A stretch of 64,000 nucleotides of DNA. It comes from Catellatospora sp. IY07-71 (lineage in GTDB: Bacteria; Actinomycetota; Actinomycetes; Mycobacteriales; Micromonosporaceae). The first letter of the stretch is position 1; each line of letters opens with the position of its first letter. The notes under the pieces were generated by a model. It did not search any database and was not told the DNA's origin. It was given only the letters and a program-made list of their open reading frames with translations. The stretch lies in contig NZ_AP023360.1 of NCBI RefSeq assembly GCF_018326265.1, forward strand, positions 8,243,001-8,307,000, read 5' to 3'. The position numbers and the translations under genes are program-made. Below, piece after piece: positions 27,447 to 59,825 of this stretch.

Positions 27447-27490
27447 GAAGGGCACCTTCTACATCGCAAAGCGATAAGAAGGTGCCCTTC
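27447..27490. repeat. Double-palindrome element, family C copy 1
   Basis: Arms GAAGGGCACCTTC (27447-27459) and GAAGGTGCCCTTC (27478-27490) are mutual inverted repeats, and each is itself a GAAGG-N3-CCTTC palindrome. Start-to-start spacing is 31 bp; the loop contains CGCAAAGCG. It lies between convergent genes and is likely a bidirectional terminator. Confidence 0.85.
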
Positions 27491-27493
27491 CTT

Positions 27494-28648
27494 TCAGCGG
27501 GACCACTGGGTGGCGAGGCGGGCGGAGAGTTCGCGCAGGCCGCGGGCGGGTTCGGCCAGGGCCAGGTCGACGCTGCCGAAGTGTTCGACGAGGGCGTACG
27601 CCTCGGTGACGCCGGCCACGCCCTGCTCGCGGCGGCCGGTGGTGACGCGACCGGCCAGCACCACGCAGGGGATGCCGAGGTCACGGGCGGCGCCGGCCAG
27701 GCCGGAGATGGCCTTGCCGCGCAGGGACTGGTGGTCGAACGAGCCCTCACCGGTGATGACCAGGTCGGTCTCCTCCAGCACCTGGTCCAGGCCGGTCAGC
27801 TCGCGGACCAGGTCGATGCCGGAGGCGACCGTGCCGCCCAGGGCGAGCAGCGCCGCGCCCAGGCCGCCCGCCGCGCCGCCGCCGGGCAGCTCGGCCAGCT
27901 TCGCCGGGCAGCCGGGCAGCTCGCGCTCCAGCACCGCCGCCCAGTTGGCCAGGGCCGCGTCGAGCAGGGTGACGTCCTGCGGGGTGGCGCCCTTCTGCGG
28001 GCCGTACACCGCCGACGCGCCGTGCAGGCCGGTCAGCGGGTTGTCGACGTCCGTCGCCGCGATCAGCTCGACGCCCGGCGGCAGCAGGACGGCGGCCTCC
28101 TCGTCGCCCCCGGTCACGGCGAGGGAGGTACAGGTGGTCAGGGCCGCGCCCCCGGGGGCGAGCGGCTGGCCGGCGGCGTCGAGGCCGACGGCACCGAGAG
28201 CGGCGAGCAGGCCCGCCCCGCCGTCGTTGGTGGCCGAGCCGCCCAGCCCGACGACCACCCGCCGGGCACCGTGCGCGAGCGCCGCCTGGACCAGCGCGCC
28301 GAGGCCGTATGACGAGGTGAGCTTCGGGTCCCGCTCGGCGGGGTCGACCAGGTGCAGGCCGCAGGCCTGGGCGCTCTCCACGTACGCGGTGACGTCGCCG
28401 GGCTGCCCCACCAGCAGCACCGCACCGGCGGCCGGGCGGCCCAGCGGGTCGGTCGTGGTGACCGGGAGCAGCTGCCCGCCGAGCGAGGAGTGCAGCACCT
28501 CGACGAAGCCGGGGCCGCCGTCGGCGATCGGGCGGCAGATCAGCTCGTCGGCGGCGGCGACGGTGTGCCAGCCCTCGGCGACGGCCTGCGCCGCCTCCAC
28601 CGCGGTGAGCGTGCCGGCGAACTTGTCGGGACAGATCAGCACTCGCAT
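27494..28648 (-). CDS. Glycerate kinase (GlxK family)
   Basis: The 384-residue protein is a glycerate 2-kinase type enzyme. Motifs are MRVLICPDKFAGTLTAVEAA at the N-terminus, CRPIADGGPGF near 40, GLGGSATNDGGAG near 135 and LVITGEGSFDHQSLRGKA near 295. It phosphorylates glycerate for entry to glycolysis. The ATG at 28648 is 7 nt after TATGGT and gives the canonical N-terminus; an ATG 4 codons upstream lies within that box. Positionally equivalent to Rv2205c. Confidence 0.92.
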   Translation of the reverse strand: MRVLICPDKFAGTLTAVEAAQAVAEGWHTVAAADELICRPIADGGPGFVEVLHSSLGGQLLPVTTTDPLGRPAAGAVLLVGQPGDVTAYVESAQACGLHLVDPAERDPKLTSSYGLGALVQAALAHGARRVVVGLGGSATNDGGAGLLAALGAVGLDAAGQPLAPGGAALTTCTSLAVTGGDEEAAVLLPPGVELIAATDVDNPLTGLHGASAVYGPQKGATPQDVTLLDAALANWAAVLERELPGCPAKLAELPGGGAAGGLGAALLALGGTVASGIDLVRELTGLDQVLEETDLVITGEGSFDHQSLRGKAISGLAGAARDLGIPCVVLAGRVTTGRREQGVAGVTEAYALVEHFGSVDLALAEPARGLRELSARLATQWSR

Positions 28649-28655
28649 GGCCAGC

Positions 28656-28661
28656 ACCATA
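28656..28661 (-). promoter_or_regulatory. -10 box of leaderless promoter for glycerate kinase
   Basis: TATGGT on the minus strand is 7 nt before ATG 28648. Confidence 0.55.
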
Positions 28662-28778
28662 ACGGCGCTGTTTGCAGTCGCGCGCCAGCCCACGACGGCG
28701 TCCCATGCGCGCGCCGTGGGGCAGGCCACAGCGCAACGGGAGCGACTGCACCGGGCGATCGGTGCCACTATGGGACAC

Positions 28779-33720: not shown

Positions 33721-33795
33721 GATCGTTCGACTTGCCTGGCAGGTGGGCAGATCTTGAGGCGTGATACGCCCGTTTGCCAGGCAAGTCGAACGATC
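33721..33795. repeat. 75-bp palindromic element, family D copy 1
   Basis: Arms 33721-33741 and 33775-33795 pair perfectly over 21 bp with a 33-nt loop that itself holds GGCGT-GAT-ACGCC (33758-33770). The arm core is CGACTTGCCTGGCA. It lies downstream of the minus-strand MFS gene. The second copy is at 53555. Confidence 0.9.
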
Positions 33796-33831
33796 GAGGA
33801 ACAGGGCGGGCGATCGAGGAAGGTGCGCCGG

Positions 33832-35519: not shown

Positions 35520-35563
35520 GAAGGTGCCCTTCCTCTACGGATAGCGATAAGAAGGTGCCCTTC
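35520..35563. repeat. Family C copy 2 with one arm inverted
   Basis: GAAGGTGCCCTTC occurs at 35520-35532 and 35551-35563 as a direct repeat, not the inverted pair seen in the other family C elements. The 31-bp spacing is unchanged. The long hairpin is therefore lost, but each arm is still a small palindrome. It lies downstream of the ABC ATPase gene. Confidence 0.85.
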
Positions 35564-35653: not shown

Positions 35654-36604
35654 TCAGTGGCGGTAGAGGCGGGCGATGACCTCTTCGATCTCCGGTTCGG
35701 CTACCGAGAGGTCGCGCAGGCCGCCGAGGGCGGTCAGGGCCGAGACCAGGGTCCCGATCGAGGCGGTGCCGTCGAGGGTGAAGATCAGCCGGGGGCCGGT
35801 CGCGGATTCGAGGTGTACGCCGGGCAGCTCCGGCGGCGCCGCGGGCGCGACGTCGAAGTCCACGACGACGCGCCGCTGCGAGCCGTAGCGGGCGTGCAGC
35901 GCGTCGATGCCGCCGTCGTGCACCACCCGGCCGTGGTCGATGACCACGATGCGCCGGCACAGCCGCTCGATGTCGGCCAGGTCGTGCGTGGTCAGCACGA
36001 TGGTGGTGTCGCCGCGTTCGCCCAGCTCGGCGAGGAAGCCGCGCACCGCCTGCTTGCTGACCACGTCCAGGCCGATGGTCGGCTCGTCCAGGAACAGGAT
36101 CTGCGGGCCGTGCAGCAGCGCCGCGGTCAGCTCGCCGCGCATGCGCTGGCCGAGGGACAGCTGGCGGACGGGCGTGTCCAGGAACCCGTCCAGGTCCAGC
36201 AGGTCGCGGCAGCGCCGCAGCCGGGCCGCGTGCTCGCCGCCGGGCACCCGGTAGATGTGCCGCAGCAGCTCGAACGAGTCGCGCAGGGGCAGATCCCACC
36301 ACAGCTGCGAGCGCTGCCCGAACACCACGCCGATACGGCGGGCCAGCTGGATCCGCTGCGGCACCGGGACGAGCCCGCACACCGACACCCGGCCGCCGGA
36401 GGGGTGCAGCACGCCGGTCAGCATCTTCAGCGTGGTCGACTTGCCCGCGCCGTTCGGCCCGAGGTAACCCAGCAGCTCCCCACGCTGCACCGTCAGGTCC
36501 ACCCCGTCGACCGCGGCGACGGTACGCCGTTCCCGGCGCAGCAGCCCGCGGCGGACCCGGACGCTGAACTCCTTGCGCAGCTCCCGCGTTTCGATGACGT
36601 TCAC
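35654..36604 (-). CDS. ABC-2 type exporter ATP-binding protein
   Basis: The 316-residue ABC ATPase has Walker A GYLGPNGAGKSTTLKML near residue 48, signature QLSLGQRMRGELTAALL near 145, Walker B ILFLDEPTIGLD near 168 and the switch TTHDLADIERL near 205. A C-terminal domain of about 90 residues follows, as in DrrA-like exporters. It energises the two permeases encoded just upstream. GTG 36604 is preceded by GGGGGAG. The substrate is unknown. Confidence 0.93.
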   Translation of the reverse strand: MNVIETRELRKEFSVRVRRGLLRRERRTVAAVDGVDLTVQRGELLGYLGPNGAGKSTTLKMLTGVLHPSGGRVSVCGLVPVPQRIQLARRIGVVFGQRSQLWWDLPLRDSFELLRHIYRVPGGEHAARLRRCRDLLDLDGFLDTPVRQLSLGQRMRGELTAALLHGPQILFLDEPTIGLDVVSKQAVRGFLAELGERGDTTIVLTTHDLADIERLCRRIVVIDHGRVVHDGGIDALHARYGSQRRVVVDFDVAPAAPPELPGVHLESATGPRLIFTLDGTASIGTLVSALTALGGLRDLSVAEPEIEEVIARLYRH

Positions 36605-45227: not shown

Positions 45228-45234
45228 GACGCGA

Positions 45235-46649: not shown

Positions 46650-46655
46650 GCCCGC

Positions 46656-46661
46656 ACGCTA
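46656..46661 (-). promoter_or_regulatory. -10 box of leaderless promoter (YjbR gene)
   Basis: TAGCGT on the minus strand is 6 nt before GTG 46649. Confidence 0.55.
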
Positions 46662-46683
46662 CCGCCCCACCGCCCCACCCCGC

Positions 46684-46752: not shown

Positions 46753-46774
46753 ACGCGATCTTCGCGGCCGCGGC

Positions 46775-46841
46775 CAAGATCAGTGTTTCGGGTCGGAACC
46801 TTGCGCTGGGCTGAACCTTGTGACACGAGCTGGCGATCTTG
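46775..46841. repeat. Palindromic element, family A copy 4
   Basis: The left arm begins CAAGATCAGTGTTTCGGGTC; the right arm ends GACACGAGCTGGCGATCTTG. Pairing is imperfect. It follows family B copy 2 after 22 bp. Confidence 0.75.
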
Positions 46842-46869
46842 CTTCCCGCCCGGCAGACCCGGGCGTTAA

Positions 46870-46913
46870 GAAGGGCACCTTCCTCTACGCAAAGCGTTAA
46901 GAAGGTGCCCTTC
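46870..46913. repeat. Double-palindrome element, family C copy 3
   Basis: GAAGGGCACCTTC (46870-46882) and GAAGGTGCCCTTC (46901-46913) are spaced 31 bp start to start, with CTACGCAAAGCGTTAA in the loop. It is 11 bp after the gcvT stop codon, so it is probably its terminator. Confidence 0.85.
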
Positions 46914-46924
46914 CTTTGCTCAGG

Positions 46925-48046
46925 TCACTTCACGGAGGGGGTGATGAAGGGGGGTTTGGTGACGGTCATGGAGCTGCGGCGGCCGCGCACGTCGACCTCT
47001 ACGGTGTCGCCCTCGGACAGGGCGGCGGAGGTGTCGAGCAGGGCCAGGGCGATGCCGACCTTGCGGGTCGGGGAGAAGGTGCCGCTGGTGATCTCGCCGA
47101 CGGTGGTGTCGCCGGAGAGGACCGCCATGTGCGGGCGCGGGATGCCGCGGTCGTTGGCGACCAGGCCCCACAGGGTGCGGCGAGGGCCCGCCGCCTTCTC
47201 GGCGGTGAGCGCGTCGCGGCCCCAGAATTCGGGCTTGCTCCAGCCCACGGCCCAGCCCGCGCGGGCCTGCACCGGGGTGATGTCCAGGGACAGGTCCTGC
47301 CCGTGCAGCGGGTATCCCATCTCGGTGCGCAGCGTGTCCCGGGCGGCCAGGCCGCAGGCGCGGACCTCGACGCTCGCGCCGAACAGCGCGTCCCACACCC
47401 GCGTCGCGTCGGCCGACGGGGCGACCAGCTCGTAGCCGTGCTCGCCGGTGTAGCCGGTGCGGCACACGGTGAGGGTGACCCCGTCCAGCTCCGCTGTGGC
47501 GAAGCTCATGTACTCGTGCTCGGTGGGCAGCCCCAGCTCGGCCAGCAGCTCGGCCGAGCGCGGCCCCTGCACCGCCAGCACGGCGAAGTCGGCGTGCTCG
47601 TTGGTGACGGTCAGGCCTGCCGGCGCCGCGGCGGTCAGCCGGCGGACGACCTCGGTGGTGTTGGCCGCGTTGGGGATCAGGAAGACGTGGTCCTCGCCGT
47701 ACAGGTAGGCGATGATGTCGTCCACCACCCCGCCCGTCGCGTCGTCGCAGCACAGCGTGTACTGCGCCTTGCCCGGCTTGATGCGGCCCAGGTCGTTGGT
47801 GAGGCAGGCGTTGACGAACTCGGCGGCGCCGGGCCCGGTGATCCGGGCCTTGCCGAGGTGGCTCACGTCGAAGACGCCGACCCCCTCGCGGACCGCGGCG
47901 TGCTCCTTGAGCACCCCGCCTCCGGCATACTCCAACGGCATGTCCCAGCCGCCGAATGCGGCGAACTTGGCTCCCAGCGCGGCGTGACGCTCGTGCAGAG
48001 GGGATCTGAGCAGGTCGGCTGAGTCTTTTGAACCCACGTCGGTCAT
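46925..48046 (-). CDS. gcvT: Glycine cleavage system T protein (aminomethyltransferase)
   Basis: GcvT (373 residues) transfers the aminomethyl carbon from H-protein lipoyl-lysine to tetrahydrofolate. Typical blocks are [50 protein letters not shown] at the N-terminus, [12 protein letters not shown] near 108 and [14 protein letters not shown] near 195, and the C-terminal [18 protein letters not shown]. The rest of the glycine cleavage genes are not adjacent. ATG 48046 lies 6 nt after TAAGTT. Equivalent to Rv2211c. Confidence 0.95.
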
Positions 48047-48052
48047 GAGCGC

Positions 48053-48058
48053 AACTTA
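48053..48058 (-). promoter_or_regulatory. -10 box of leaderless promoter for gcvT
   Basis: TAAGTT on the minus strand is 6 nt before ATG 48046. Divergent to it, TAGCAT at 48079-48084 may serve the aminopeptidase gene, whose GTG has its own AGGAG. Confidence 0.55.
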
Positions 48059-48118
48059 CCCTGGCGTTTGGGGTTCGTTAGCATCGGCGCAGCAACCCAC
48101 TTCCACCAGGAGTACTTT

Positions 48119-49687
48119 GTGACCACGCCCACCACGGCTCTGCCATCGCTGAGCCTCGCTGACACCGACCCCGCCGACCTCACCGTGGACGCAGTGGTCA
48201 TCGGCGTACACAGTCAGGAAGGCGCCGAGGGCGCGGCCGGCGAGCTGCTGCTGGCGTCCGGGGCCGAGAGCATCGCCGCCGCGTTCGACGGCAAGCTGAC
48301 CGCCACCCTGGCGCTGCTCGGCGCGACCGGCGGCGCGGGCGAGGTCACCAAGCTCGCCACGCTCGGCACGATCACCGCCCCGGTGCTGGTCGCCGTCGGC
48401 CTGGGCGGCGAGCCGTCCGGCGCCGCGCCCGCGCCCGACACGCTGCGCCGCGCCACCGCCGCCGCGGTGCGCGCGCTGGCCGGCGCGCAGCAGGTCGCGC
48501 TCGCCCTGCCGCTGTCCGACGACGCCGACGACAACGGCGCCCTCACCCTGCGCGCCGTCGCGGAGGGCGCCGCGCTGGGTGCGTACCGGTTCGCCGGCTA
48601 CAAGGGCAAGCCGGCCGCCGGCCGCAAGAACCCCGTCTCCGCCGTGTCGGTGCTGGTGCCGGACGCCAAGGAGACCACCGCGAACGCCGAGGTCAAGCGG
48701 GCGTCGGTGGTGACCGCGGCGGTCGCCCGCACCCGCGACTGGGTGAACGCGCCCGCCAACCTGCTGCGCCCGCCGTCGTTCGCCGACGAGATCGCCGCGG
48801 TCGCCGGCAAGGCCGGCCTGGACGTCGAGGTGCTCGACGAGCAGGCGCTGACCGAGGGCGGCTTCGGCGGCATCCTCGCCGTCGGCATGGGCTCGGCCGC
48901 CAAGCCGCGCCTGGTCAAGCTCACCTACACGCCGGCGCAGGCGACCACCACCGTGGCGCTGATCGGCAAGGGCATCACCTTCGACACCGGCGGCGTCTCC
49001 ATCAAGCCCGCCCAGGGCATGTGGGAGATGAAGTCGGACATGGCCGGCGCCGCCGCGGTGGCCAGCGTCATGGTCGCCATCGCCGAGCTGAAGCCGTCGG
49101 TCGCGGTCACCGCGTACATCCCGATCGCGGAGAACATGCTGTCCGGTGACGCGTACCGACCGGGCGACGTGGTCACCATGCGCAGCGGCAAGCGGGTCGA
49201 GGTGCTCAACACCGACGCCGAGGGCCGCATGATCCTGGCCGACGCCATCGCGCTGGCCTGCGAGGCGCAGCCGGACTACCTGATCGAGACCTCGACGCTG
49301 ACCGGCGGCCAGGTCATCGCGCTGGGCAAGCGCATCGCCGGCGTGATGGGCTCGGAGGCCCTGGCCCAGCGCACCAAGGCCGCGGGCGACCTGGTCGGCG
49401 AGCCGACCTGGCCGATGCCGCTGCCGGACGAGATCCGCAAGTCGATGGAGTCCGACGTCGCCGACATCCTGCAGGTCAGCGCGGGTATGGAGCGCGCCGG
49501 CCACATGCTGCAGGGCGGCGTCTTCCTGCGCGAGTTCGTCGCCGAGGGCGTCCAGTGGGCGCACATCGACATCGCGGGCCCGTCGTTCCACTCCGGCGAG
49601 GCCACCGGCCACTGGAGCAAGGGCGGCACCGGCGTCCCGGTCCGCACCCTGGTCGCGCTGCTGGACGACCTGGCCGCCAACGGCTGA
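48119..49687 (+). CDS. pepA: Leucyl aminopeptidase (M17)
   Basis: This 522-residue cytosolic aminopeptidase of family M17 has the dinuclear metal and catalytic residues in VALIGKGITFDTGGVSIKP (Lys, Asp) near 285, WEMKSDMAGAAAV near 305 and the hallmark NTDAEGRMILADAIAL near 365. The N-terminal 170 residues are the family's regulatory domain. GTG 48119 is chosen because AGGAG lies 6 nt before it; an in-frame ATG at 48068 has no such site. Equivalent to Rv2213. Confidence 0.94.
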   Translation: MTTPTTALPSLSLADTDPADLTVDAVVIGVHSQEGAEGAAGELLLASGAESIAAAFDGKLTATLALLGATGGAGEVTKLATLGTITAPVLVAVGLGGEPSGAAPAPDTLRRATAAAVRALAGAQQVALALPLSDDADDNGALTLRAVAEGAALGAYRFAGYKGKPAAGRKNPVSAVSVLVPDAKETTANAEVKRASVVTAAVARTRDWVNAPANLLRPPSFADEIAAVAGKAGLDVEVLDEQALTEGGFGGILAVGMGSAAKPRLVKLTYTPAQATTTVALIGKGITFDTGGVSIKPAQGMWEMKSDMAGAAAVASVMVAIAELKPSVAVTAYIPIAENMLSGDAYRPGDVVTMRSGKRVEVLNTDAEGRMILADAIALACEAQPDYLIETSTLTGGQVIALGKRIAGVMGSEALAQRTKAAGDLVGEPTWPMPLPDEIRKSMESDVADILQVSAGMERAGHMLQGGVFLREFVAEGVQWAHIDIAGPSFHSGEATGHWSKGGTGVPVRTLVALLDDLAANG

Positions 49688-49711
49688 GCCTCGGGGTTCT
49701 GAGCTCACTAA

Positions 49712-49778
49712 GAAGATCGCTGTTTCGTGTCACAAGGTGCGGTTCAACCACGCTTTTTGACACGAAACAGCGATCTTC
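49712..49778. repeat. Palindromic element, family A copy 5 (perfect arms)
   Basis: Arms 49712-49732 and 49758-49778 pair perfectly over 21 bp with a 25-nt loop. This is the best-preserved family A copy. It lies between convergent stop codons of pepA and the 105-residue gene. Confidence 0.9.
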
Positions 49779-49796
49779 CCCGTTACGGCGAGACCG

Positions 49797-50114
49797 TCAC
49801 TCCGCGGGGCGGAGTTTCTGGCGCGCATTGTAGTCGCGCATGCGCTGCGGATACCCGGTGAGCTGGACGTCGTAGACGGGCATCGACAGGCGGCGGGCGA
49901 ACTGGCGGACGACCGTGGGGCTGGGCATGCGGCGGCGGGTCCACTCGCCGTCGTGGGCGATCAGGATGACGGTGGTTCCGGTGACCGTCGTCCGGGGCTC
50001 GATGAACGCCTCGACGCCCCGGCGGGACTGCGCGAACTGCTCAAGATGGGAGATGTCGGCCGGATTGGCCGGGCCATCTGCCGAGGACCCGCCCCGGCGG
50101 CGGAACCAGCCCAC
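49797..50114 (-). CDS. Small basic protein of unknown function
   Basis: A 105-residue protein starting (M)GWFRRRGGSS, then EQFAQSRRGVEAFIEPRTTVTGTTVILIAHDGEWTRRRMPSPTVVRQFARRLSMPVYDVQLTGYPQRMRDYNARQ. A central beta-rich core and Arg-rich termini are visible. I know conserved actinobacterial proteins of this look beside lpdA but no function. GTG 50114 has AGGAG at 5-6 nt. It is divergent from lpdA. Confidence 0.82.
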   Translation of the reverse strand: MGWFRRRGGSSADGPANPADISHLEQFAQSRRGVEAFIEPRTTVTGTTVILIAHDGEWTRRRMPSPTVVRQFARRLSMPVYDVQLTGYPQRMRDYNARQKLRPAE

Positions 50115-50285
50115 ACCTGCTCCTCTCACACGGCGTCGCTTCGGTGCGCATGGTACTGGGCAAGAGTAGCCAGACGTGTCCTTGAGCACCTCCAGTGCGC
50201 GCCCCCGCTCCGACAGTGACAAGATGACCGGGTGTGGGCTGAGCACACACCGGCTCAGTGGCAATGACGCGACCTTGGAGCGATC

Positions 50286-51662
50286 GTGAGCGACACCTTT
50301 GACGTAGTCATCCTCGGCGGCGGTAGCGGCGGGTACGCCACCGCGCTGCGCGCGGCACAGCTGGGTCTGTCCGTCGCGCTGATCGAGAAGGACAAGCTGG
50401 GCGGCACCTGCCTGCACCGGGGCTGCATCCCCACCAAGGCGCTGCTGCACGCCGGCGAGGTCGCCGACCAGACCCGCGAGGCGGCGCACATCGGCATCAA
50501 GGCCGAGCTGATCGAGATCGACATGGCCGGCATCAACTCGTACAAGGACGGCGTCGTGGCCGGCCTGTACAAGGGTCTGCAGGGCCTGATCAAGGCCGCC
50601 AAGGTCACCTACGTCGAGGGCACCGGCACCCTGGTCGCCCCGAACGCCGTCGAGGCCAACGGCCAGCGCTACACCGGCCGCAACATCGTGCTGGCCACCG
50701 GTTCGTACTCGAAGTCCCTGCCCGGCCTGGACCTGGACGGCGAGCGGGTCATCGCCAGCGAGCACGCGCTCGTGCTGGACCGCGTCCCCTCCTCCGCGAT
50801 CGTGCTGGGCGGCGGCGTCATCGGCGTCGAGTTCGCCAGCGCGTGGAAGTCGCTCGGCGCCGACGTGACCATCGTGGAGGCCCTGCCCCGCCTGGTCGCC
50901 GCCGAGGACCCGGACATCTCCAAGCAGCTCGAGCGCACCTTCCGCAAGCGCGGCATCGGCTTCAAGGTCGGCAAGCCGTTCGAGAAGGTCGAGAAGACCG
51001 AGTCCGGCGTCAAGGTCACCATCGCCGGCGGCGAGACCCTGGAGGCCGAGCTGCTGCTGGTCGCCGTGGGCCGCGGCCCGGCCACCGCCAACTGCGGCTT
51101 CGAGCAGCAGGGCGTCACCATGGAGCGCGGTTTCGTCATCACCGACGAGCGCCTGCGCACCAACCTGCCCAACGTGTACGCCGTCGGCGACATCGTGCCC
51201 GGCCTGCAGCTGGCGCACCGCGGCTTCCTCCAGGGCATCTTCGTCGCCGAGACGATCGCCGGGCAGAACCCGGCCCCGATCGTCGAGTCCGGCATCCCGC
51301 GCGTCACCTACACCGACCCGGAGATCGCGTCGGTCGGCATCACCGAGGCGCAGGCCAAGGAGAAGTTCGGCGCGGAGAACGTCGAGACGTACAACTACAA
51401 CCTGGGCGGCAACGGCAAGAGCAAGATCCTGGGCACCCAGGGCTTCATCAAGCTGGTGCGCCAGAAGGACGGCCCGGTCGTCGGCATCCACATGATCGGC
51501 GCCCGGATGGGCGAGCAGGTCGGCGAGGCGTCGCTGATCGTCAACTGGGAGGCCTTCCCGGCCGAGGTCGCGCAGCTCATCCACGCGCACCCGACCCAGA
51601 ACGAGGCGCTCGGCGAGGCGCACCTGGCGCTGGCGGGCAAGCCGCTGCACGCCCACAACTGA
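50286..51662 (+). CDS. lpdA: Dihydrolipoyl dehydrogenase (E3)
   Basis: The 458-residue flavoprotein disulfide reductase reoxidises lipoyl groups of 2-oxo acid dehydrogenases using NAD. FAD motif VVILGGGSGGYATALRAAQLG is at the N-terminus, with redox Cys pair GGTCLHRGCIPTKALL at 38-45. NAD motif AIVLGGGVIGVEFASAWKSLG is near 175, and the active base is in IHAHPTQNEALGE near the C-terminus. GTG 50286 has GGAG at 5 nt. E2 follows 63 bp later, so the two probably share function and perhaps transcript. Confidence 0.96.
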   Translation: MSDTFDVVILGGGSGGYATALRAAQLGLSVALIEKDKLGGTCLHRGCIPTKALLHAGEVADQTREAAHIGIKAELIEIDMAGINSYKDGVVAGLYKGLQGLIKAAKVTYVEGTGTLVAPNAVEANGQRYTGRNIVLATGSYSKSLPGLDLDGERVIASEHALVLDRVPSSAIVLGGGVIGVEFASAWKSLGADVTIVEALPRLVAAEDPDISKQLERTFRKRGIGFKVGKPFEKVEKTESGVKVTIAGGETLEAELLLVAVGRGPATANCGFEQQGVTMERGFVITDERLRTNLPNVYAVGDIVPGLQLAHRGFLQGIFVAETIAGQNPAPIVESGIPRVTYTDPEIASVGITEAQAKEKFGAENVETYNYNLGGNGKSKILGTQGFIKLVRQKDGPVVGIHMIGARMGEQVGEASLIVNWEAFPAEVAQLIHAHPTQNEALGEAHLALAGKPLHAHN

Positions 51663-51725
51663 GCTAATAAGCTCACCTCGTCCTAATCACAGCGGATCAG
51701 CACTTACACCGAGGAGTCTGAAGCA

Positions 51726-53486
51726 ATGCCGGTATCGGTAACCATGCCGCGGCTCGGCGAGAGCGTCACCGAGGGCACCGTCACCCGGTGGCTCAAGCAG
51801 GAGGGCGACCGGGTCGAGGTCGACGAGCCGCTGCTCGAGGTCTCCACCGACAAGGTGGACACCGAGATCCCGTCGCCGGCCGCCGGCATTCTCAGCAAGA
51901 TCATCGTCGGCGAGGACGAGACCGCTGAGGTGGGCGCCGAGCTGGCCGTCATCGCCGGCGAGGGCGAGAGCCCGGCCGCCGCCGCGCCGGCCCCGGCGCA
52001 GGAGGCCCCCGCCGCCGAGGCTCCGGCCGAGGCCGCTCCGGCACAGGAGGCGGCACCGGCGCCGGCTCAGGCCGAGCCCGCCGCCGCTGCGACCGCTCCG
52101 GCGGGCGACGCGACCCCGGTGAAGATGCCCGCGCTGGGCGAAAGCGTCACCGAGGGCACGGTCACTCGCTGGCTGAAGGCGGTCGGCGACTCGATCGAGG
52201 TCGACGAGCCGCTGCTCGAGGTCTCCACGGACAAGGTCGACACGGAGATCCCGTCCCCGGTCGCCGGCACCCTGCTGGAGATCACCGTGCCCGAGGACGA
52301 GACCGCCGCCGTCGGCGCGCAGCTCGCCCTGATCGGCGCCGCGGGTGCGGCCTCCGCCGCTCCCGCCCCGGCCCCGGCTGCTCCGGCTCCGGCTGCTGCG
52401 GCCCCCGCCGCTCCGGCCCAGGCCGCGCCCGCTCCGGCCGCCCCGGCTCCGGCTCCGGTGCAGGCCGCTCCCGCACCGGCTGCCCCGGCGGCTCCGGTGC
52501 AGGCCGCTCCGGCCGCCGCGGCTCCGGCTCCGGCCGCCGACGTCAACGGCGCTGACGGCTACGTCACCCCGCTGGTGCGCAAGCTCGCCGCCGAGCACGG
52601 TGTGGACCTGGGCAAGGTCAGCGGCACCGGTGTCGGCGGGCGGATCCGCAAGCAGGACGTGCTGGACGCCGCGGCCAAGGCGAAGGCTCCGGCCGCCGCC
52701 CCCGCCGCTGCCGCTCCGGCCGCGCCCGCCGCGGCTCCGGCCGCAAAGGCCGCGCCGAGCCCGCTGCGCGGACGCACCGAGAAGCTGTCGCGGCTGCGTA
52801 CCACCATCGCCAAGCGCATGGTGGAGTCGCTGCAGATCTCGGCGCAGCTCACCACCGTGGTCGAGGTGGACGTCACCAAGATCGCCAAGCTGCGTGAGCA
52901 GGCCAAGGCCGACTTCCTCGCCAAGAACGGCGTGAAGCTGTCCTTCCTGCCGTTCTTCGCGCTGGCGGCGGTCGAGGCGCTGCGGGTGCACCCGAACGTG
53001 AACGCGTCGATGGACCTGGAGGCCGGCACGGTCACCTACCACGACGCCGAGCACCTGGGCATGGCCGTGGACACCGACAAGGGCCTCATCGTCCCGGTGA
53101 TCCGCAACGCGGGCGACCTGAACCTGGCGGGCCTGGCCCGCCGGATCGCCGACGTGGCCGAGCGCACCCGCTCCAACAAGATCCTGCCGGACGAGCTGTC
53201 GGGCGGCACCTTCACGCTGACCAACACCGGCAGCCGGGGCGCCCTGTTCGACACGCCGATCATCAACCAGCCGCAGGTCGCCATCCTCGGCACCGGCGCC
53301 GTCGTCAAGCGGGCCGTGGTCGTGGACGACGCGAGCCTGGGCGAGCTGATCGTGCCGCGCTACATGGTGTACCTGGCCCTCTCCTACGACCACCGCCTGG
53401 TGGACGGCTCCGACGCGGCCCGCTTCCTGGGCACCGTCAAGGAGCGCCTGGAGAGCGGCAACTTCGAGGCCGAACTCGGCCTCTGA
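51726..53486 (+). CDS. sucB: 2-oxo acid dehydrogenase E2 (dihydrolipoamide acyltransferase)
   Basis: An E2 protein of 586 residues with two lipoyl domains (lipoyl Lys in [10 protein letters not shown] at 43 and about 172), joined by Ala/Pro-rich linkers. The E3-binding domain is [37 protein letters not shown] (about 275-315). A catalytic domain of about 235 residues ends in [18 protein letters not shown], the HxxxDG site. In actinobacteria this E2 (DlaT/SucB, Rv2215) serves pyruvate and 2-oxoglutarate complexes; which substrate cannot be told here. No E1 gene is present in the window. Other symbols used are dlaT and pdhC. Confidence 0.95.
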
Positions 53487-53501
53487 CCCGCACCACCCGA
53501 A

Positions 53502-53533
53502 GAGGGGCGACCGGCAACCGCCGGCCGCCCCTC
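53502..53533 (+). terminator. Terminator after the E2 gene
   Basis: Arms 53502-53515 and 53520-53533 pair over 14 bp with one G-T wobble and a 4-nt loop. Confidence 0.8.
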
Positions 53534-53554
53534 GTCGCGTCCCACCCCTTCCTC

Positions 53555-53629
53555 GATCGTCCGACTTGCCTGGCAGGTGGGCGTATCTTGAGCGCCCTTC
53601 CGCCCATGTGCCAGGCAAGTCGGACGATC
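53555..53629. repeat. 75-bp palindromic element, family D copy 2
   Basis: Arms 53555-53575 and 53609-53629 pair perfectly over 21 bp around a 33-nt loop, the same dimensions as copy 1 at 33721. A T-A pair in copy 1 is a C-G pair here, so both arms changed together. The loop shares GGTGGGC and ATCTTGAG. Confidence 0.9.
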
Positions 53630-53671
53630 ATGGCCGGTCGGCGGGCGGGCGAGGGCGGTGGCGGGGCTCGT

Positions 53672-53677
53672 TAGGGT
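53672..53677 (+). promoter_or_regulatory. -10 box of leaderless promoter (ABC ATPase)
   Basis: TAGGGT is 6 nt before GTG 53684. Confidence 0.6.
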
Positions 53678-53683
53678 GGGCGG

Positions 53684-54382
53684 GTGGCGATCGTGGAGGC
53701 CAGGGGCGTGTCCGTCGCGTACGGCGAGGTCGCCGTGCTACGCGAGGTGAACCTGACCGTCGGCGCGGGCGAGATCACCGCCGTGGCCGGGGTGAACGGG
53801 TGTGGGAAGTCCACCCTGCTGCGCTGCCTGGGCGGCCTGCTCCGGCCCGGCGGCGGCGAGGTGCGGGTGCTGGGCGCCGCGCCGAGCGCCGCCCCGGCCT
53901 TCTGGCGCGAGGTCGCCCTGGCCGCCGAGGAGCCCGCCTGGTATCCCGGCCTGACCGTCCGCGAGCACCTGGAACTCGTCCCGCTGACGCACGGCACGAG
54001 CACCCCTCCGGTCCTGTCCGTCGCACGGGCGCTGGACGAGTTCGAGCTGGCCGGGCGGGCCGAGGCCACCCCGCTGACGCTCTCCTCCGGCCAGCGGCAG
54101 CGGCTCGCGCTGGCGTCGGTGCTCGTCCGCCCCAGCCGCCTGCTGCTGCTCGACGAGCCCGAGCAGAAGCTCGACGCCGCGTTCCGCGTCCGGCTCGCGG
54201 CGCTGCTGCGGGCGTACGCCGACGGCGGCGGCACCATCGTGATGGCCACCCACGACGCGGCGCTGGCCGAGGGCACGGGCGCGCGCGTGCTGCCGATGCG
54301 CGACGGCCGCCTGCTCGACGGCGACGGCGACGGCGACACGCTCCGCCCCACGTCCGCCCCCGCATCCGCGCCCGCCGCCTGA
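53684..54382 (+). CDS. ABC transporter ATP-binding protein
   Basis: The 232-residue ABC ATPase has Walker A AVAGVNGCGKSTLLRCL near residue 35, signature LTLSSGQRQRLALASVL near 130, Walker B LLLLDEPEQKLDAAF near 152 and H-loop MATHDAAL near 190. Walker B reads DEPEQKLD rather than DEPTxGLD. The C-terminal 20 residues are a low-complexity tail. The stop codon overlaps the start of the membrane partner (TGATG). Substrate unknown. Confidence 0.9.
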   Translation: MAIVEARGVSVAYGEVAVLREVNLTVGAGEITAVAGVNGCGKSTLLRCLGGLLRPGGGEVRVLGAAPSAAPAFWREVALAAEEPAWYPGLTVREHLELVPLTHGTSTPPVLSVARALDEFELAGRAEATPLTLSSGQRQRLALASVLVRPSRLLLLDEPEQKLDAAFRVRLAALLRAYADGGGTIVMATHDAALAEGTGARVLPMRDGRLLDGDGDGDTLRPTSAPASAPAA

Positions 54383-56028
54383 TGGCCGTCCCCACAGCGG
54401 GAGCCGTACGGGCCGCCCGCGCCGCGACCCGGGCCCGCCGGGCCCCCGCCGACTGGTACGACCGCTACTTCCGCGTCTTCGGCGTGGCCGTCCTGGTGGT
54501 GCTGCTGCTCGGGCCGTTCCACACGGTGCTCACCCGGCTGGCCGAGCCGCTCGCGGCGGCCGATCCGGCAGCCGCCCGCGCCGGGCTGGCCCTGCTGGTG
54601 GCGTACTTCGCCGGGCTCGTCGCGCTCGCCTCGCTCGCCGGTCCGGTCGTCCTGTCCCCCGCCGATGCCCGCTGGCTGCTGCTGTCGCCCCTGGACCGGC
54701 GTGCGGTGCTCGCCCCCGCCGCCCGGCGCGCGGCGGCCCTCGGCGTCGTCGCCGGCGCGCCCACGGCCGCCGTGGCGGTCCGCCTGCTGGGTATGCCCGA
54801 CCACGGCCCGCTCCGGCTGGGCGCGACCGTCCTGATCGGCGCGGCGGCCGGGCTGGCCGCAGTCTGCCTCGCCACGCTGGCCCAGCCCTCGGCCCCGGCC
54901 ACCCGCCGCCTGCGCCGGGTCGCCCTCGCCGTGACCGCCGCAGCCGTGCTCACCGCCGCCGCGCCGCTGCTGCCGCCGCCCGGCTCCATCGTGACTGCCG
55001 GCACCCCGTCCACTTCGATCTCGCCGGCCGCCGCCGAACCGGCCGCCGGGGCACCTACCGGTGCCGCGACGCGACGTGTCGTTCAAGCTGCCACCGTCGT
55101 CGATGATTCGGCGCCGCGAGCTGGTTCGCTGCCCGCGGTGCCGCTGTCCGGGCTGCTGCCGGCCGCCGGACTGGCCGTGGCGGTGGCGCTGGTGCTGGCG
55201 CTGCTGGTGTGGCGGCGGCTCGCGGGCTTCCCGGCCGGGCCGGTGGCAGACGCCGCCGGGCGGGTGGGGGTGGCGACCGAGACCGCCGTCGGGCTGGAGC
55301 CGTCGTTCCTGACCCGCGCGGTCGAGCAGGCGTACTGGCGGGGCAGGCGGCTGCGCTCGCGGCGGTGGCCGTCCTGGCCGGGGCCGCTCGCACTGGCCTG
55401 GCTCGACTGGCGGGTGCTGGCGCGCCGCCCGCTGCGCCCGCTCGCCCTGGCTGGGGCGACCGCGCTGCCCGCCGTCCTGGTCACGGTGTGGCCCGCGCAG
55501 GCGCCGGTGGCCGTGGTCGCCTCATTCGTGCTCGCGCTGGCCGCGGCGAGCGCGGGCTCCGGCGGCGCCCGCCACGACGCGGACAGCCCGGCGCTTTCCC
55601 GCCTGTTCGGGGTACGGCAGCCGGCCGCCGACGCGGCCCGCCTGGCGCTGCCGTCCGTGCTGGCCGCGGCCTGGTACGCGGTCGCGCTGGCGTTGCTGGC
55701 ACGGGCCGGGGCGCTGCCCGCCGGGCCGTGGGCGCTGTTCGGCCCGGCGGCGGCGCCCGTGCTGGCCGTGGCCGCGTCGCGCCTGGCGCGGCGCGGGCAC
55801 GTCGACCACGCCTCGACCCCCGTGGTCATGCCGATGACCGGCTCGCACATCCCCACCGGCTGGTTCATCTGGGGCCTGACCGGTCTCGACATGGCGGTGC
55901 TCGGCTGCCTGCCGCTGCTGTGGGCGCTCGCCGCCCGGCCTGCCGACCCGTACCCGATGCTGCTCGTCCAGGTGATCGTCAGCGGGGCCGTCGTCGCCGT
56001 ACACCTGCTGCGCCGCCGGACTCGGTGA
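54382..56028 (+). CDS. Polytopic membrane protein, probable ABC permease (DUF6297-like)
   Basis: A 548-residue protein with about 12 hydrophobic segments in two halves, separated by a low-complexity Ala/Thr/Ser/Pro stretch near residue 210. Blocks such as DWYDRYFRVFGVAVLVVLL, LVALASLAGPVVLSPADARWLLLSPLDRRAVL and WPSWPGPLALAWLDWRVLARRPLRPLALAG resemble the actinobacterial DUF6297 permease group. Position one base after the ATPase stop supports a transporter pair. The family assignment is from memory and only moderately sure. Confidence 0.75.
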   Translation: MAVPTAGAVRAARAATRARRAPADWYDRYFRVFGVAVLVVLLLGPFHTVLTRLAEPLAAADPAAARAGLALLVAYFAGLVALASLAGPVVLSPADARWLLLSPLDRRAVLAPAARRAAALGVVAGAPTAAVAVRLLGMPDHGPLRLGATVLIGAAAGLAAVCLATLAQPSAPATRRLRRVALAVTAAAVLTAAAPLLPPPGSIVTAGTPSTSISPAAAEPAAGAPTGAATRRVVQAATVVDDSAPRAGSLPAVPLSGLLPAAGLAVAVALVLALLVWRRLAGFPAGPVADAAGRVGVATETAVGLEPSFLTRAVEQAYWRGRRLRSRRWPSWPGPLALAWLDWRVLARRPLRPLALAGATALPAVLVTVWPAQAPVAVVASFVLALAAASAGSGGARHDADSPALSRLFGVRQPAADAARLALPSVLAAAWYAVALALLARAGALPAGPWALFGPAAAPVLAVAASRLARRGHVDHASTPVVMPMTGSHIPTGWFIWGLTGLDMAVLGCLPLLWALAARPADPYPMLLVQVIVSGAVVAVHLLRRRTR

Positions 56029-56104
56029 CCGCCGCCCGGCCGCGGAGCGTCCTCCGGCGGTGTCGGCACGCCGGGGCGGGCTCCTTTTCGGGCATGATTG
56101 TCGT

Positions 56105-56995
56105 ATGCGGATCGTGGTGGCGGGAGCCTCGGGCTTCCTGGGGCAGCCCCTGCTGTCGACCCTTCGGTCGGCCGGGCACGAGGTCATCCAGCTGGTGCGC
56201 CGCCCGGCCGCCGACCCTTCGGAGCGGCAGTGGGATCCGGCCGAGCCGATCCGGCTCCCTGACGGCACCGATGCGGTGGTCAACCTGTGCGGGGTGGGCG
56301 TGAGCGACCGGCGCTGGACCGACGAGTACCAGGCGCTGATCCTGTCCAGCCGGGTCGTGCCGACCGCGACGCTGGCCCGCGCCGTCGCCGCGCAGCGCGT
56401 CCCGGTCCTGGTCAACGCGTCCGGAGTGGGCTTCTACGGGGAGACCGGTGACCGCGAGGTGACCGAGCTGTCCCCGCCCGGCGACGACTTCCTGGCCGGG
56501 GTCTCCATCCACTGGGAGGAGGCGACCGCGCCCGCGGTGACCGCCGGGGCTCGCGTGGTGCTGCTGCGCACCGGCTACCCCCTGCACCGCGAAGGCGGCT
56601 TCCTCAAGGCACAGCTGGTGCCCTTCAAGATGGGCCTCGGCGGGCGGCTGGGCAACGGCCGCCAGTGGGTCCCCTGGATCTCCCTCTACGACTGGCTGGG
56701 CGCCGCCCGGTTCGTCCTGGACGACGACCGCATCGAGGGTCCGGTCAACATGGTCGGCCCCGCACCCGTCACCAACGCCCAGTTCACCCGCGCCTTCGGC
56801 GCCGAACTGCACCGCCCCACCGTGATGCCCATCCCCAAGGCGGCCCTGAAGATCCTCTACGGCGAGTTCGGCAACGAGGCCTACCGCAGCCTCCGCGTCA
56901 TGCCCGGCGCCCTCACCGCCGCCGGCTTCCCCTACCGCCACCGCACCGTCAGCCAGGCCCTCCACGCCGCCCTCACCGACCCCGTCCCCGCCTGA
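56105..56995 (+). CDS. SDR39U1-type NAD-dependent epimerase/sugar nucleotide-like protein
   Basis: The 296-residue extended short-chain dehydrogenase of the TIGR01777/SDR39U1 group has NAD motif VVAGASGFLGQPLLSTLRSAGHEV at the N-terminus, VNLCGVGVSDRRWTDEYQALILSSRV near 60, VNASGVGFYGETGDREVTE near 105 and the long C-terminal blocks GLGGRLGNGRQWVPWISLYDWLGA and MPGALTAAGFPYRH. Reaction unknown; in mycobacteria it follows dlaT (Rv2216). ATG 56105 is 6 nt after CATGAT. Confidence 0.9.
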   Translation: MRIVVAGASGFLGQPLLSTLRSAGHEVIQLVRRPAADPSERQWDPAEPIRLPDGTDAVVNLCGVGVSDRRWTDEYQALILSSRVVPTATLARAVAAQRVPVLVNASGVGFYGETGDREVTELSPPGDDFLAGVSIHWEEATAPAVTAGARVVLLRTGYPLHREGGFLKAQLVPFKMGLGGRLGNGRQWVPWISLYDWLGAARFVLDDDRIEGPVNMVGPAPVTNAQFTRAFGAELHRPTVMPIPKAALKILYGEFGNEAYRSLRVMPGALTAAGFPYRHRTVSQALHAALTDPVPA

Positions 56996-57027
56996 CCCAC
57001 CCCGCTGCCGCGCCCTCTCCACCGCGT

Positions 57028-57096
57028 CGATCTTGCGTGAACTGTGGGTGCGACACGCCCTTTCCGGGCATATCCCTAACAGTTCGTGCAAGATCG
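57028..57096. repeat. 69-bp palindromic element, family B copy 3
   Basis: Same orientation as copy 2. The ends GATCTTGCGTGAACTGT and ACAGTTCGTGCAAGATC pair throughout if G-U wobbles are allowed at two positions, which favours an RNA hairpin. It lies between the convergent epimerase and esterase genes. Confidence 0.88.
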
Positions 57097-57128
57097 ACGC
57101 AGCAGTGGAGCCATGGACCGAGGGCCGG

Positions 57129-58547
57129 TCAGCACTGGCCGTCGGCGATGACCCAGTAGTCGGGGCCGGTCTGCTTCAGGGTGTGGGTGTAGAAGGTGTT
57201 GTAGAGGCCCATGTTCTGGTTGGAGCCGTCGGCGTAGGCGTAGCCGAGGGAGTGGTGGGCGCGGCCTGCGGCGACGTGGGCGTAGTTGCTGGCGGTGTAG
57301 CAGACGGGTGGGGTGGTGCCGCCGGTGGTGGTGGCGGAGACGGGGGCGGACTGGGCACTCTCGCCGGAGGTGCTCACGGCGGTGACGGTGAAGGTGTACG
57401 CGGTGCCCGCGCTCAGCCCCGTCGCCGTGTACGCCGTGCCGGTGACCGGGGACGACGTCACCTTCGTGCCGCCGCGGTAGACGTGGTAGCCGGTGGCGCC
57501 GGACACCGCCGTCCAGGACAGGGCGACGCTGGTGTCGGTGACGCCGATGACGGTCAGGCCGGTGGGCGCGCCGGGCGGGGTGGGCGTGGTGCCGCCGCCG
57601 TCCAGCCCGAAGAACAGGGCGTCGCGGTACGCCGAGCAGATGGTGTCCAGGAAGTACGACGCGGCCGTGCCGCACTGGTCCACGCCGCTGCCGGGGTCGA
57701 CGGGGGTGCCGTGCCCCATGCCGGCGACCTTGTAGAGCCGCACCGCGTCGGACGCGTACGTCTCCAGCGTGGTGTTGCCGGGCAGGCTGCTCGTGCTCGC
57801 CGGGGTCTGCGACGCGCCGCGCACGTTGGTCCACTGCGTCATCAGCTCGGTGCCGTTGGCGGGCACCACGGTCGTGTCGGACTGCCCCTGCCAGATCGCC
57901 ACCCGCGGCCACGGGCCGGCGTACCCGGGATTGGCGTTGCGGACGAGGTCGCCCCACTGCTGCGGGGTCTTGCTCACCGCCTGGCCCTGGCAAATCGTGC
58001 CGCAGTTGTACGGGATGCCCGCGACGACCGAGCCCGCCTTGAACACGTCCGGGTACGCGGCGAGCATCACCGCGCTCATCGCGCCGCCCGCGGACAGGCC
58101 GGACACGTACACCCGGCTCGCGTCGGTGCCGTAGTTGGTCTTGGCGTAGTCGACCATCTGCTTGACCGACAGGGCCTCGCCCTGCCCCCGCGCGATGTCC
58201 CCCGCCTGGAACCAGTTGAAGCAGCTCAGCGAGTTGTTGCCGGACTTCTGCTCGGCCACGATGAGCGCGAAGCCCCACAGGTCGGCGTACTTGCGCCAGC
58301 CGGAGTTGGTGAAATAGGCGTTCGCGTTCTGGGTGCAGCCGTGCAGCAGCACCACGGCCGGGCGGCCACCGGCCAGGCCGTCGGGCCGGTAGCTGTACAT
58401 GCTGAGGTTGCCGGGGTTGCTGCCGAACGAGCTGACCTGCGTCAGCGTGGCGGCGTGCGCCGGCGTGGCGACCACGGCCACCCCGGCGAGTCCGATGAGG
58501 AGGGCGAGCACCCCGCGGAGCAGCCGCGGGGCGGAGGGAACGGGCAT
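57129..58547 (-). CDS. Secreted PHB-depolymerase-family esterase with fibronectin III domain
   Basis: A 472-residue exported enzyme. The signal peptide covers about residues 1-33 (LLRGVLALLIGLAGVAVVATPAHAA). The esterase domain (35-320) resembles the PHB depolymerase/feruloyl esterase family: VVLLHGCTQNANAYF, VYVSGLSAGGAMSAVMLAAYP with the nucleophile Ser, and VAGMGHGTPVDPG with the His. A fibronectin III domain (about 325-410) leads to a C-terminal Cys-flanked module of about 60 residues (YTASNYAHVAAGRAHHSLGYAYADGS). It probably degrades a polyester or plant ester outside the cell. AGGAG precedes the ATG; a CRP-like box overlaps the upstream region. Confidence 0.9.
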   Translation of the reverse strand: MPVPSAPRLLRGVLALLIGLAGVAVVATPAHAATLTQVSSFGSNPGNLSMYSYRPDGLAGGRPAVVLLHGCTQNANAYFTNSGWRKYADLWGFALIVAEQKSGNNSLSCFNWFQAGDIARGQGEALSVKQMVDYAKTNYGTDASRVYVSGLSAGGAMSAVMLAAYPDVFKAGSVVAGIPYNCGTICQGQAVSKTPQQWGDLVRNANPGYAGPWPRVAIWQGQSDTTVVPANGTELMTQWTNVRGASQTPASTSSLPGNTTLETYASDAVRLYKVAGMGHGTPVDPGSGVDQCGTAASYFLDTICSAYRDALFFGLDGGGTTPTPPGAPTGLTVIGVTDTSVALSWTAVSGATGYHVYRGGTKVTSSPVTGTAYTATGLSAGTAYTFTVTAVSTSGESAQSAPVSATTTGGTTPPVCYTASNYAHVAAGRAHHSLGYAYADGSNQNMGLYNTFYTHTLKQTGPDYWVIADGQC

Positions 58548-58563
58548 GGCGGGCTCCTAGACA

Positions 58564-58577
58564 GTGATCCATGTCAC
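58564..58577 (-). promoter_or_regulatory. CRP-like site upstream of the secreted esterase
   Basis: GTGATCCATGTCAC matches the GTGA-N6-TCAC CRP pattern and the Streptomyces form GTG-N6-GNCAC. It ends 17 bp from the esterase ATG, close enough to overlap the promoter or leader. Regulation by a Crp-type protein is an inference. Confidence 0.5.
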
Positions 58578-58681
58578 TCAGCTGTGGAGCCGCACGCTAT
58601 GCCCTCGCGCAACACCCCCGACATATCCCCGCAACACACATTCCCCCTCCCCCATGTGTCTACGAACGGAAGTCCTGAAAG

Positions 58682-58725
58682 GAAGGGCACCTTCTTAACG
58701 CTTTCCGTAGTAGAAGGTCCCCTTC
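58682..58725. repeat. Double-palindrome element, family C copy 4, overlapping a gene end
   Basis: GAAGGGCACCTTC (58682-58694) and GAAGGTCCCCTTC (58713-58725) keep the 31-bp spacing; one arm has a T-to-C-side mismatch. Orientation of the loop (CGCTTTCCG) is opposite to copies 1, 3 and 5. The stop codon of the LLM gene at 58695-58697 lies inside the element. Confidence 0.85.
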
Positions 58726-59741
58726 TTAACGCCGCCGCCCGGCGGATCGGCGGCGCCGGGGACGAGGTACGGAGTGGGCCAAGCCGTCGGTAGCGCGGCG
58801 AGGGTGGTGATGAGGTCGGTGGTGGCCTCGGTGGAGCCGGCGGCTTCGACCATGCACAGGTGGCGCGACACCCCTGTCACGGCGGTGGAGTGCGCCAGGG
58901 CGGCGGCGACCTCGTCGGGCGGGCCTACCGGCTGGATCCGGAGCAGGTGTTCGACGTGGGCGTCGAGGTCACGGCCGGGCGGGGCACCGGAGACGGGCAC
59001 GGCGGCGCGGATGCCCGCGAGCCAGCGCGGCAGGTGCTCGCGCAGTTCACGCTCGCCGGTGGCGCGGTCGGCGCACGGGTACGCCAGCCGGACCCGCGCG
59101 TGGTCCGCGCCCACCGGGTCGTGCCCGTGCGCGGTGGCGGCGAGCGCCCACCGGTCCACCAGCGCGGCCGTCTCGGCGTCGTCGGCGTGTACGCCCAGCA
59201 GCAGCGGCAGCCCGTGCCGCCCCGCCAGCTCGGCGGTGTCCCCCGAGGTGACCGCCACCCGCACCGGCACCGGCCGGTCCGGCCGCGGCACGACGGCCAG
59301 CGGCCCGAACCGGTGGAACTCGCCCTCGGCGGCCACCGCCGCCGCACCCGACAGCCAGCGCAACAGCAGCTCCAGCGACTCGGCGAAGCCGCGCCGGTAG
59401 TGCTCCACGCCCCGCCCGAGGATCGCGACCTCCTGCCACGGCCCGCCCCGGGCGACGCCGAGCTGAAACCGGTCCCCGGCCAGCGCGTGCAGCAGCGCCG
59501 CCTCCTCCCCAAGCGCGACCGGGTGCCGCGAGCCGAGCACGCACGCGGCCGTGCCGACGGTGATGCGCCTGGTCCCGGCCAGGATGTGCCCGGCGAGCAC
59601 GGTCGCCGACGGGCACTGGCCGTACCCGACGAAGTGGTGCTCGGCGAGCCACACCCCGCCCATCCCGGCCCGCTCCGCCGCCACCGCGTGTGCGAGCGCC
59701 GCGGCCGGGCCATAGGCACTGGTCAGGAAAACGTCCAGCAA
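58695..59741 (-). CDS. LLM-class flavin-dependent oxidoreductase
   Basis: The 348-residue luciferase-like monooxygenase family protein has MLDVFLTSAYGPAAALAHAVAAERAGMGGVWLAEHHFVGYG at the N-terminus, RITVGTAACVLGSRHPVALGEEAALLHALAGDRFQLGVARGG near 65-105 and the substrate-side CMVEAAGSTEATTDLI near the end. It binds reduced FMN or F420; substrate unknown. TTG 59741 is preferred: AAGGAG lies 5 nt before it, while the in-frame GTG at 59756 lies upstream of that site. The last ten residues (KKGTFYYGKR) are encoded by a family C repeat, so the natural C-terminus was probably replaced. Confidence 0.85.
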   Translation of the reverse strand: MLDVFLTSAYGPAAALAHAVAAERAGMGGVWLAEHHFVGYGQCPSATVLAGHILAGTRRITVGTAACVLGSRHPVALGEEAALLHALAGDRFQLGVARGGPWQEVAILGRGVEHYRRGFAESLELLLRWLSGAAAVAAEGEFHRFGPLAVVPRPDRPVPVRVAVTSGDTAELAGRHGLPLLLGVHADDAETAALVDRWALAATAHGHDPVGADHARVRLAYPCADRATGERELREHLPRWLAGIRAAVPVSGAPPGRDLDAHVEHLLRIQPVGPPDEVAAALAHSTAVTGVSRHLCMVEAAGSTEATTDLITTLAALPTAWPTPYLVPGAADPPGGGVKKGTFYYGKR

Positions 59742-59781
59742 GGTCACTCCTTCCACAGCGCAGTTCAGCGCAGTGCGTTAA

Positions 59782-59825
59782 GAAGGGCACCTTCCTATAC
59801 GCAAAGCGATAAGAAGGTGCCCTTC
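59782..59825. repeat. Double-palindrome element, family C copy 5
   Basis: GAAGGGCACCTTC (59782-59794) and GAAGGTGCCCTTC (59813-59825), spacing 31 bp, with TACGCAAAGCGATAA in the loop. It lies 10 bp after the stop of the gene ending at 59836. Confidence 0.85.

Follow-up and report, generated by a model that had tools for sequence, protein, structure and literature searches.

Transcription terminators are thought to share structure rather than sequence, and DNA uptake sequences (DUS) are often found singly within coding sequence. In Streptomyces clavuligerus, structured 3′ ends are commonly poor in U: of 535 that are highly structured, 353 lack it (PMC8269248, in excerpt). Closely spaced complementary pairs of DUS or USS in Neisseria and Haemophilus form hairpins thought to be terminators (PMC2267715, in excerpt), and species dialects have been described for DUS (PMC3630211, in excerpt). 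Tagged REPs may supply a stop codon (PMC3733652, in excerpt). We describe here a 44-bp element of Catellatospora, which we read, with a probability of about 0.6, as a lineage-specific dispersed family of mRNA 3′-end hairpins that evolve in concert and most likely act as U-poor terminators.

The window, the whole 64-kb stretch of DNA analysed here, comes from a single-contig genome of 8,595,826 bp (G000), which we compared with ten other genomes of the genus (G001-G010). The element consists of two 13-bp arms, GAAGGN3CCTTC, with 18 bp between them and 31 bp from start to start. Five exact double-arm matches begin at 27447, 35520, 46870, 58682 and 59782, just as the first-pass annotation had placed and spaced them, against none in 100 shuffles; the window holds ten arm matches (shuffle mean 0.02), each within one of the five copies. 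By the gene calls of our own codon-usage script, used in place of an annotation, every copy does lie within about 90 bp of a gene end, as had also been claimed. RNA folding gives one long hairpin for each (z -3.2 to -9.3), in agreement with the suggestion that the element can fold in this way. No Rfam 15 family reached its gathering score anywhere in the 64 kb.

Copy 1 (27447..27490, sense on the minus strand) lies between convergent genes at 26502-27413 (+) and 27494-28660 (-), 33 bp from the end of the former and 3 bp past the stop of the latter; its arms are complementary, its inner stem is paired, and it folds at -38.2 kcal/mol (z -9.3). Copy 2 (35520..35563, minus) lies 90 bp past the stop of the gene at 35654-36604 (-) and is of the direct type, with an identical centre in both arms (-25.9 kcal/mol, z -3.5). 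Copies 3 (46870..46913, minus; -34.9 kcal/mol, z -5.9) and 5 (59782..59825, minus; -35.7 kcal/mol, z -8.3) follow the stops of the genes at 46925-48046 (-) and 59836-60231 (-) by 11 and 10 bp. Four of the five thus obey a sense rule, and copy 4 (58682..58725) is the exception: its loop is oriented on the plus strand, where no gene ends nearby, and the minus-strand gene at 58695-59747 ends inside it, with a TAA stop within the TTAA behind an arm. One base of its second arm is altered (-22.9 kcal/mol, z -3.2), and copies 2 and 4 are the weakest folds of the window. Copy 4 also encodes the called C-terminal end of that gene, which relatives terminate differently.

Other repeats occur nearby. Beside copy 3, at 46684-46850, stand the dispersed repeats GATCTTGCGCGAA...TTCGCGCAAGATCG and AAGATCAGTGTTTCGGGTC...GACACGAGCTGGCGATCTTG, and parts of this region match many places in the genus at 76-93% identity. 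Positions 33727-33797 hold the inverted repeat GATCGTTCGACTTGCCTGGCA...TGCCAGGCAAGTCGAACGATC, and an overlapping stretch likewise matches many places in the genus.

Across G000, 229 pairs have exactly 18 bp between their arms against 232 when 8-28 bp are allowed (reversed-pattern control, 0), and single and paired arms together number 575 (control, 3). Spacing therefore does not vary freely among copies, an outcome that would have told against the first-pass annotation. Nor do arms occur singly at equal frequency, its other refuting outcome: in a 624-kb sample of G000 (20 stretches, partly picked around known copies) nine of 123 arms lay outside doublets, four of them from two copies interrupted by an insertion sequence (IS), four with the centres TCT, TGT, CGT and TCG, and one a lone half. 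The exact pattern is present in all 11 genus genomes examined, at 28-244 copies per genome, and among 30 genomes outside the genus, with 5-35 bp allowed, we found 23 pairs in one, a single pair in each of two others and none elsewhere. The exact 31-bp spacing first reported is dominant genome-wide, but it is not unique. Eighteen G000 matches have 36-66 bp between arms, comprising four composites of adjacent elements and 14 long forms of 76-77 bp, with 63 or 64 bp between arm starts and 32-33 extra bases able to form hairpins; one of these long forms is a short form at the same G002 site, its remaining loop unchanged.

The second departure from 31 bp is found in Micromonospora. Elements with the loop TTAACGCCTNNGGTAGA and different arms number 66, 21, 53 and 11 in four genomes reached via Micromonospora loci, and often stand behind a sense gene end (30 loci viewed). 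Their two TTAAC-like motifs are spaced at 31 in 23 of 30 copies and at 30 in the other seven, which come from one species; the M. okii record (G042) has register 30 in seven of eight listed copies, with a TCAC-type end. A family-wide pattern run last matched nine of 16 genomes under genus label g4 (presumably Micromonospora) and none in other sampled genera, but it was too narrow to gauge the true range, with a single match in 11 Catellatospora genomes.

In sense orientation the consensus, condensed and with minor letters omitted, reads RAAG-GAAGGGCACCTTC-TTAWCG(C/T)TTT(C/G)CGTAG(A/T)(A/G)-GAAGG(TGC or GCA)CCTTC-TTAAC. The 18-bp loop thus shows a strong consensus as well as an inner stem, which contradicts the earlier statement that it lacks a fixed sequence. 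Most loops carry GTAG before arm 2, internal to the element and at neither of its ends. Arm centres in a G000 sample (n=59) were GCA/TGC in 42 copies and GCA/GCA, the direct type, in 14. Arm 2 is followed directly by TTAAC in 159 of 219 copies and by CTAAC in 24 (several species; summed from listed 6-mers); many copies also have TTAAC or TTATC behind arm 1, which allows the element to be seen as a tandem of two units in a 31-bp register. Copies whose loop direction could not be determined were excluded from the consensus and the arm-centre and inner-stem counts, as from the gene-orientation, site-retention, arm-census, tail and loop-difference counts.

A few per cent of genes carry a copy behind their stop codon, in uniform orientation. 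A sense gene end lay no more than 40 bp from 78 of 99 copies, 70 of which stood 1-12 bp after the stop: 59 had a sense end only, 19 a sense and an antisense end, nine an antisense end only and 12 neither, in a census that includes both members of orthologous G000 and G002 pairs, which are not independent. In this census a co-directional next gene began at least 22 bp downstream of the element, which therefore does not lie inside tight operons. Named loci were retrieved separately using half an element as query, and among the matches listed (n=137) the nearest gene was correctly oriented in 103, wrongly in 26 and undecided in eight; 75 of the 103, among the same matches, lay 1-14 bp from the gene end. 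Several convergent gene pairs have their own mirror-image copy for each gene (2161281/2161352, 2173776/2173847, 217800/218043, 514291/514478). Symmetric copies did not significantly favour short convergent gaps (Fisher p 0.42 by arm centres, 0.054 by inner stem).

We read the element as follows. Most copies face the same way as the gene before them and stand roughly twelve bases or fewer past its stop codon, where a transcription unit ends; the arms, 13 bp each, would pair around a small inner stem, more strongly where their centres are complementary; and the resulting hairpin most likely halts RNA polymerase in the manner of the U-poor terminators of actinobacteria, and may also protect the 3′ end of the transcript. 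Between two close species the copies stay in place, with loops and arm centres probably homogenised within each genome, so that species have dialects.

Comparison of G000 with G002 over 224 kb shows this stability. Both flanks were found for 19 of 20 copies and all 19 sites were filled; the twentieth, copy 1, is on a different G002 contig and is filled as well. Against G003, the script called four sites filled, ten empty or decayed and six not comparable, and inspection by eye of the ten element-free G003 rows found another long inverted repeat in six (five regions), none in two and much longer intervals in two. Flanks of the empty G003 sites are too diverged to define a junction, and no target duplication could be established. 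At the gene end of copy 1 the element is present in G002, G003, G006, G007 and G010, partly of another loop type, and an unrelated long inverted repeat stands there in G004, G005 and G009; neither was seen in G001 or G008. At that of copy 2 the element is found in G002, G004, G005 and G009, partly decayed in G003, G006, G007 and G010, and not in G001 or G008. Copy 3 has counterparts in G002, G005 and G009 and is absent from seven of ten relatives, in which the sequence inspected held no clear substitute hairpin; copies 4 and 5 are missing from several relatives. Another hairpin type, AACTCTTAAAGA...TCTTTAAGAGTT, occurs in G003 (G003:C1:2330001-2530000) at two gene ends that hold the element in G000.

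We then asked how element-free orthologous slots fold. Fifteen such slots from four relatives had a median fold of -40.7 kcal/mol, although one of them (C 47446) holds a symmetric element missed by the filter and two others represent one region. They were clearly more stable than within-operon gene ends (n=69, median -27.0, p 5e-5), slightly more stable than other co-directional ends with a gap of at least 100 bp (n=68, -32.1, p 0.045), and no more stable than other convergent gene ends (n=112, -37.2, p 0.30). Element-free slots therefore fold like other transcription-unit ends and look like ordinary terminator slots, but because they fold no more stably than other convergent ends the argument from the slots is weakened. 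Hairpins are usual at the ends of transcription units, and these are the places that the element takes up, which fits a terminator slot and is not special proof of one.

These data also bear on an unlikely alternative, that the element is a selfish dispersed palindrome, REP- or MITE-like, which tolerates gene ends and has no role. Hundreds of similar copies, long and short forms, a copy number ranging from 28 to 244 within the genus and the many sites empty in more distant relatives would all be expected of such a repeat, but its orientation to genes, its distance from stop codons and the retention of 19 of 19 testable sites between G000 and G002 would not. The distribution of a candidate mobilising enzyme argues in the same direction: Y1 transposase (PF01797) exceeds the cut-off in six of 11 genus genomes and five of 14 control genomes, and is absent above it from G002, G005, G007, G008 and G009, which hold 244, 126, 146, 28 and 165 copies. 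REP/RAYT mobility is thus unsupported by the transposase distribution.

We likewise rejected the idea that the arms are the ends of a MITE or IS, for which two copies with arms 1014 bp apart had been candidates; these are elements split by an IS. It lies inside the two copies, adjoining an arm (L141:7467-8494 and L142:9226-10253; G000:C1:202467 and 394226), inserted at TTA/TAA, and has terminal repeats GAGCGACCGGCA. Its ORF matches DDE_Tnp_1 (PF01609), with other profile matches below the cut-off. The repeat may serve as an IS landing site.

Covariation of the arm centres is seen in one species, G009: of 100 copies listed, 50 have Watson-Crick complementary centres against 27.2 expected, none of 20,000 shuffles gave as many as 50, and all four pair types are represented. 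Within the loop, 159 distinct elements showed inner-stem pairing at positions 4/14 in 101 (88 in shuffles) and at 7/11 in 86 (71 in shuffles); the remaining loop pairs tested in these elements had little or no excess over shuffles, and in G009 alone pair 4/14 had none (42 vs 40.7). We take this covariation as support and not as proof, because the shuffles ignore kinship among copies and template switching can perfect palindromes.

Such complementarity above shuffles tells against a second, rather improbable alternative, in which each palindrome binds a protein dimer and the two dimers sit on one face of the helix at gene ends (31 bp being about three turns and 63-64 bp about six), for chromosome organisation or roadblock termination, with dialects reflecting changed specificity. 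Much of the layout would suit paired sites: each arm is palindromic and almost never single, the register is 31 in 229 of 232 pairs and in 23 of 30 Micromonospora copies despite their different arms, and direct-type copies are common (14 of 59) and persist at one site in several species. But a palindromic site needs no strict gene orientation, the long forms may share one origin, and register 30 in seven of eight listed copies of one species weakens the idea that DNA phasing alone accounts for 31 bp. The earlier interpretation is partly supported, namely in the long hairpin, the gene-end location, the scarcity of single arms and the near-exact register. Its inference from fixed spacing to a structural or protein-binding constraint is unsupported in the form given: since the loop is conserved, spacing by itself does not demand a protein, and copying with homogenisation would also keep it, although a protein or DNA-phasing constraint may yet apply. 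Orientation to genes, the short distance to the stop, TTAAC behind arm 2, long forms, dialects and altered loops at retained sites go beyond what that annotation described.

As expected of a terminator, a stable RNA hairpin is predicted just downstream of the gene, and we conclude that transcription probably terminates at the element. The tail is poor in U: the eight bases after arm 2 contain at most two T in 130 of 219 copies and at least three in 89. A scan of 44500-61500 for U-tract terminators detected none of the three copies there. Such few U behind a stable hairpin 1-12 nt after the stop would also suit an mRNA 3′-end stabiliser, in which case transcription would end further downstream, for instance through Rho, and the hairpin would stop exonucleases at the stop codon. 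We consider this as improbable as paired protein sites; nothing in these data separates stabilisation from termination, and against it stand long inverted repeats of unrelated sequence that occupy the same gene ends in certain species, one of them T-rich-ended (G009, contig site 94962).

Termination alone does not explain why the copies share their sequence, since a terminator can do without a conserved one. Seventeen pairs of G000 and G002 sites that agree in form and orientation fell into two classes, nine with 0-2 loop differences (4 of 162 bases in sum) and eight with 3-8 of 18 (42 of 144), whereas their arms differed at 4 of 442 bases; one further pair was inverted and another switched between long and short form. 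In the nearest 30-bp flanks the two classes show 60 differences in 547 aligned columns and 78 in 496, a higher rate than in the 500-bp flanks, which are mostly 90-99% identical (range 87-100%); because the near flanks have also diverged, the main contrast is between loops and arms and between the two loop classes, and less with the near flanks. Differing loops are shifted towards a genome-specific type: loop position 4 is T in G000 and A in its G002 partner in nine pairs, and never the reverse. At contig site 181062 G000 and G002 have in common an altered arm-2 end (CCCTTG), and their loops differ at eight of 18 positions. G009 has GNC in both arms in 99 of 100 listed copies (of 156), and at five sites compared its GNC arms stand against the GCA prevailing in G000, one of the five having altered arms.

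These dialects point to homogenisation within a genome, which would proceed by template switching or ectopic conversion; an arm of 13 bp is a short substrate for ordinary recombination. Doubtful in our view is a gene-end cassette in which the palindromes are two anchors at fixed register and hundreds of loci swap their 18-bp cores through a dedicated flank-sparing activity, a recombinase or anchor-guided template switching, so that every species would have its own terminator dialect across the genome, read by a co-evolving factor.

We favour the U-poor terminator family evolving in concert. One sequence family holds the gene-end position behind a few per cent of the genus's genes, in one orientation and register, and with concerted differences between close species. 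If borne out, this would be a natural system in which to study how short repeats are homogenised over a whole bacterial chromosome when no transposase is consistently present, and its sequence would help to locate transcript ends in Micromonosporaceae. Among the papers listed by a literature search none described the element, and its literal arm sequence occurred only in one unrelated paper; most subscription journals lay outside this search, which leaves its unpublished status unproven.

How, then, does the element compare with known systems? It resembles REP, BIME and REPIN sequences as a short palindromic repeat with hundreds of copies near gene ends, and copy 4 (58682) supplies a stop codon, as tagged REPs may (PMC3733652, in excerpt). 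It differs from them in its orientation to genes, its two arms in fixed register, its internal GTAG and the lack of a consistent RAYT-type transposase. With the DUS/USS terminators, as their excerpted descriptions present them, it has in common a short motif in close complementary pairs that form hairpins, and dialects by species; unlike theirs, the Catellatospora arm is itself palindromic, is almost never single (9 of 123 outside doublets, where DUS are frequent as single motifs), keeps a fixed register and has no known role in uptake. It also resembles the U-poor (I-shaped) terminators of GC-rich actinomycetes, which likewise place a strong hairpin after the stop codon and lack a good U tract (PMC8269248, in excerpt). 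These are defined by structure, with no shared sequence family mentioned in the excerpted text (PMC8269248), whereas in Catellatospora one sequence stands at hundreds of loci. On our best reading, the general kind, U-poor terminator-like 3′-end hairpins, is already known, and it is the form that is unusual: one sequence, one orientation, one register and concerted differences between species.
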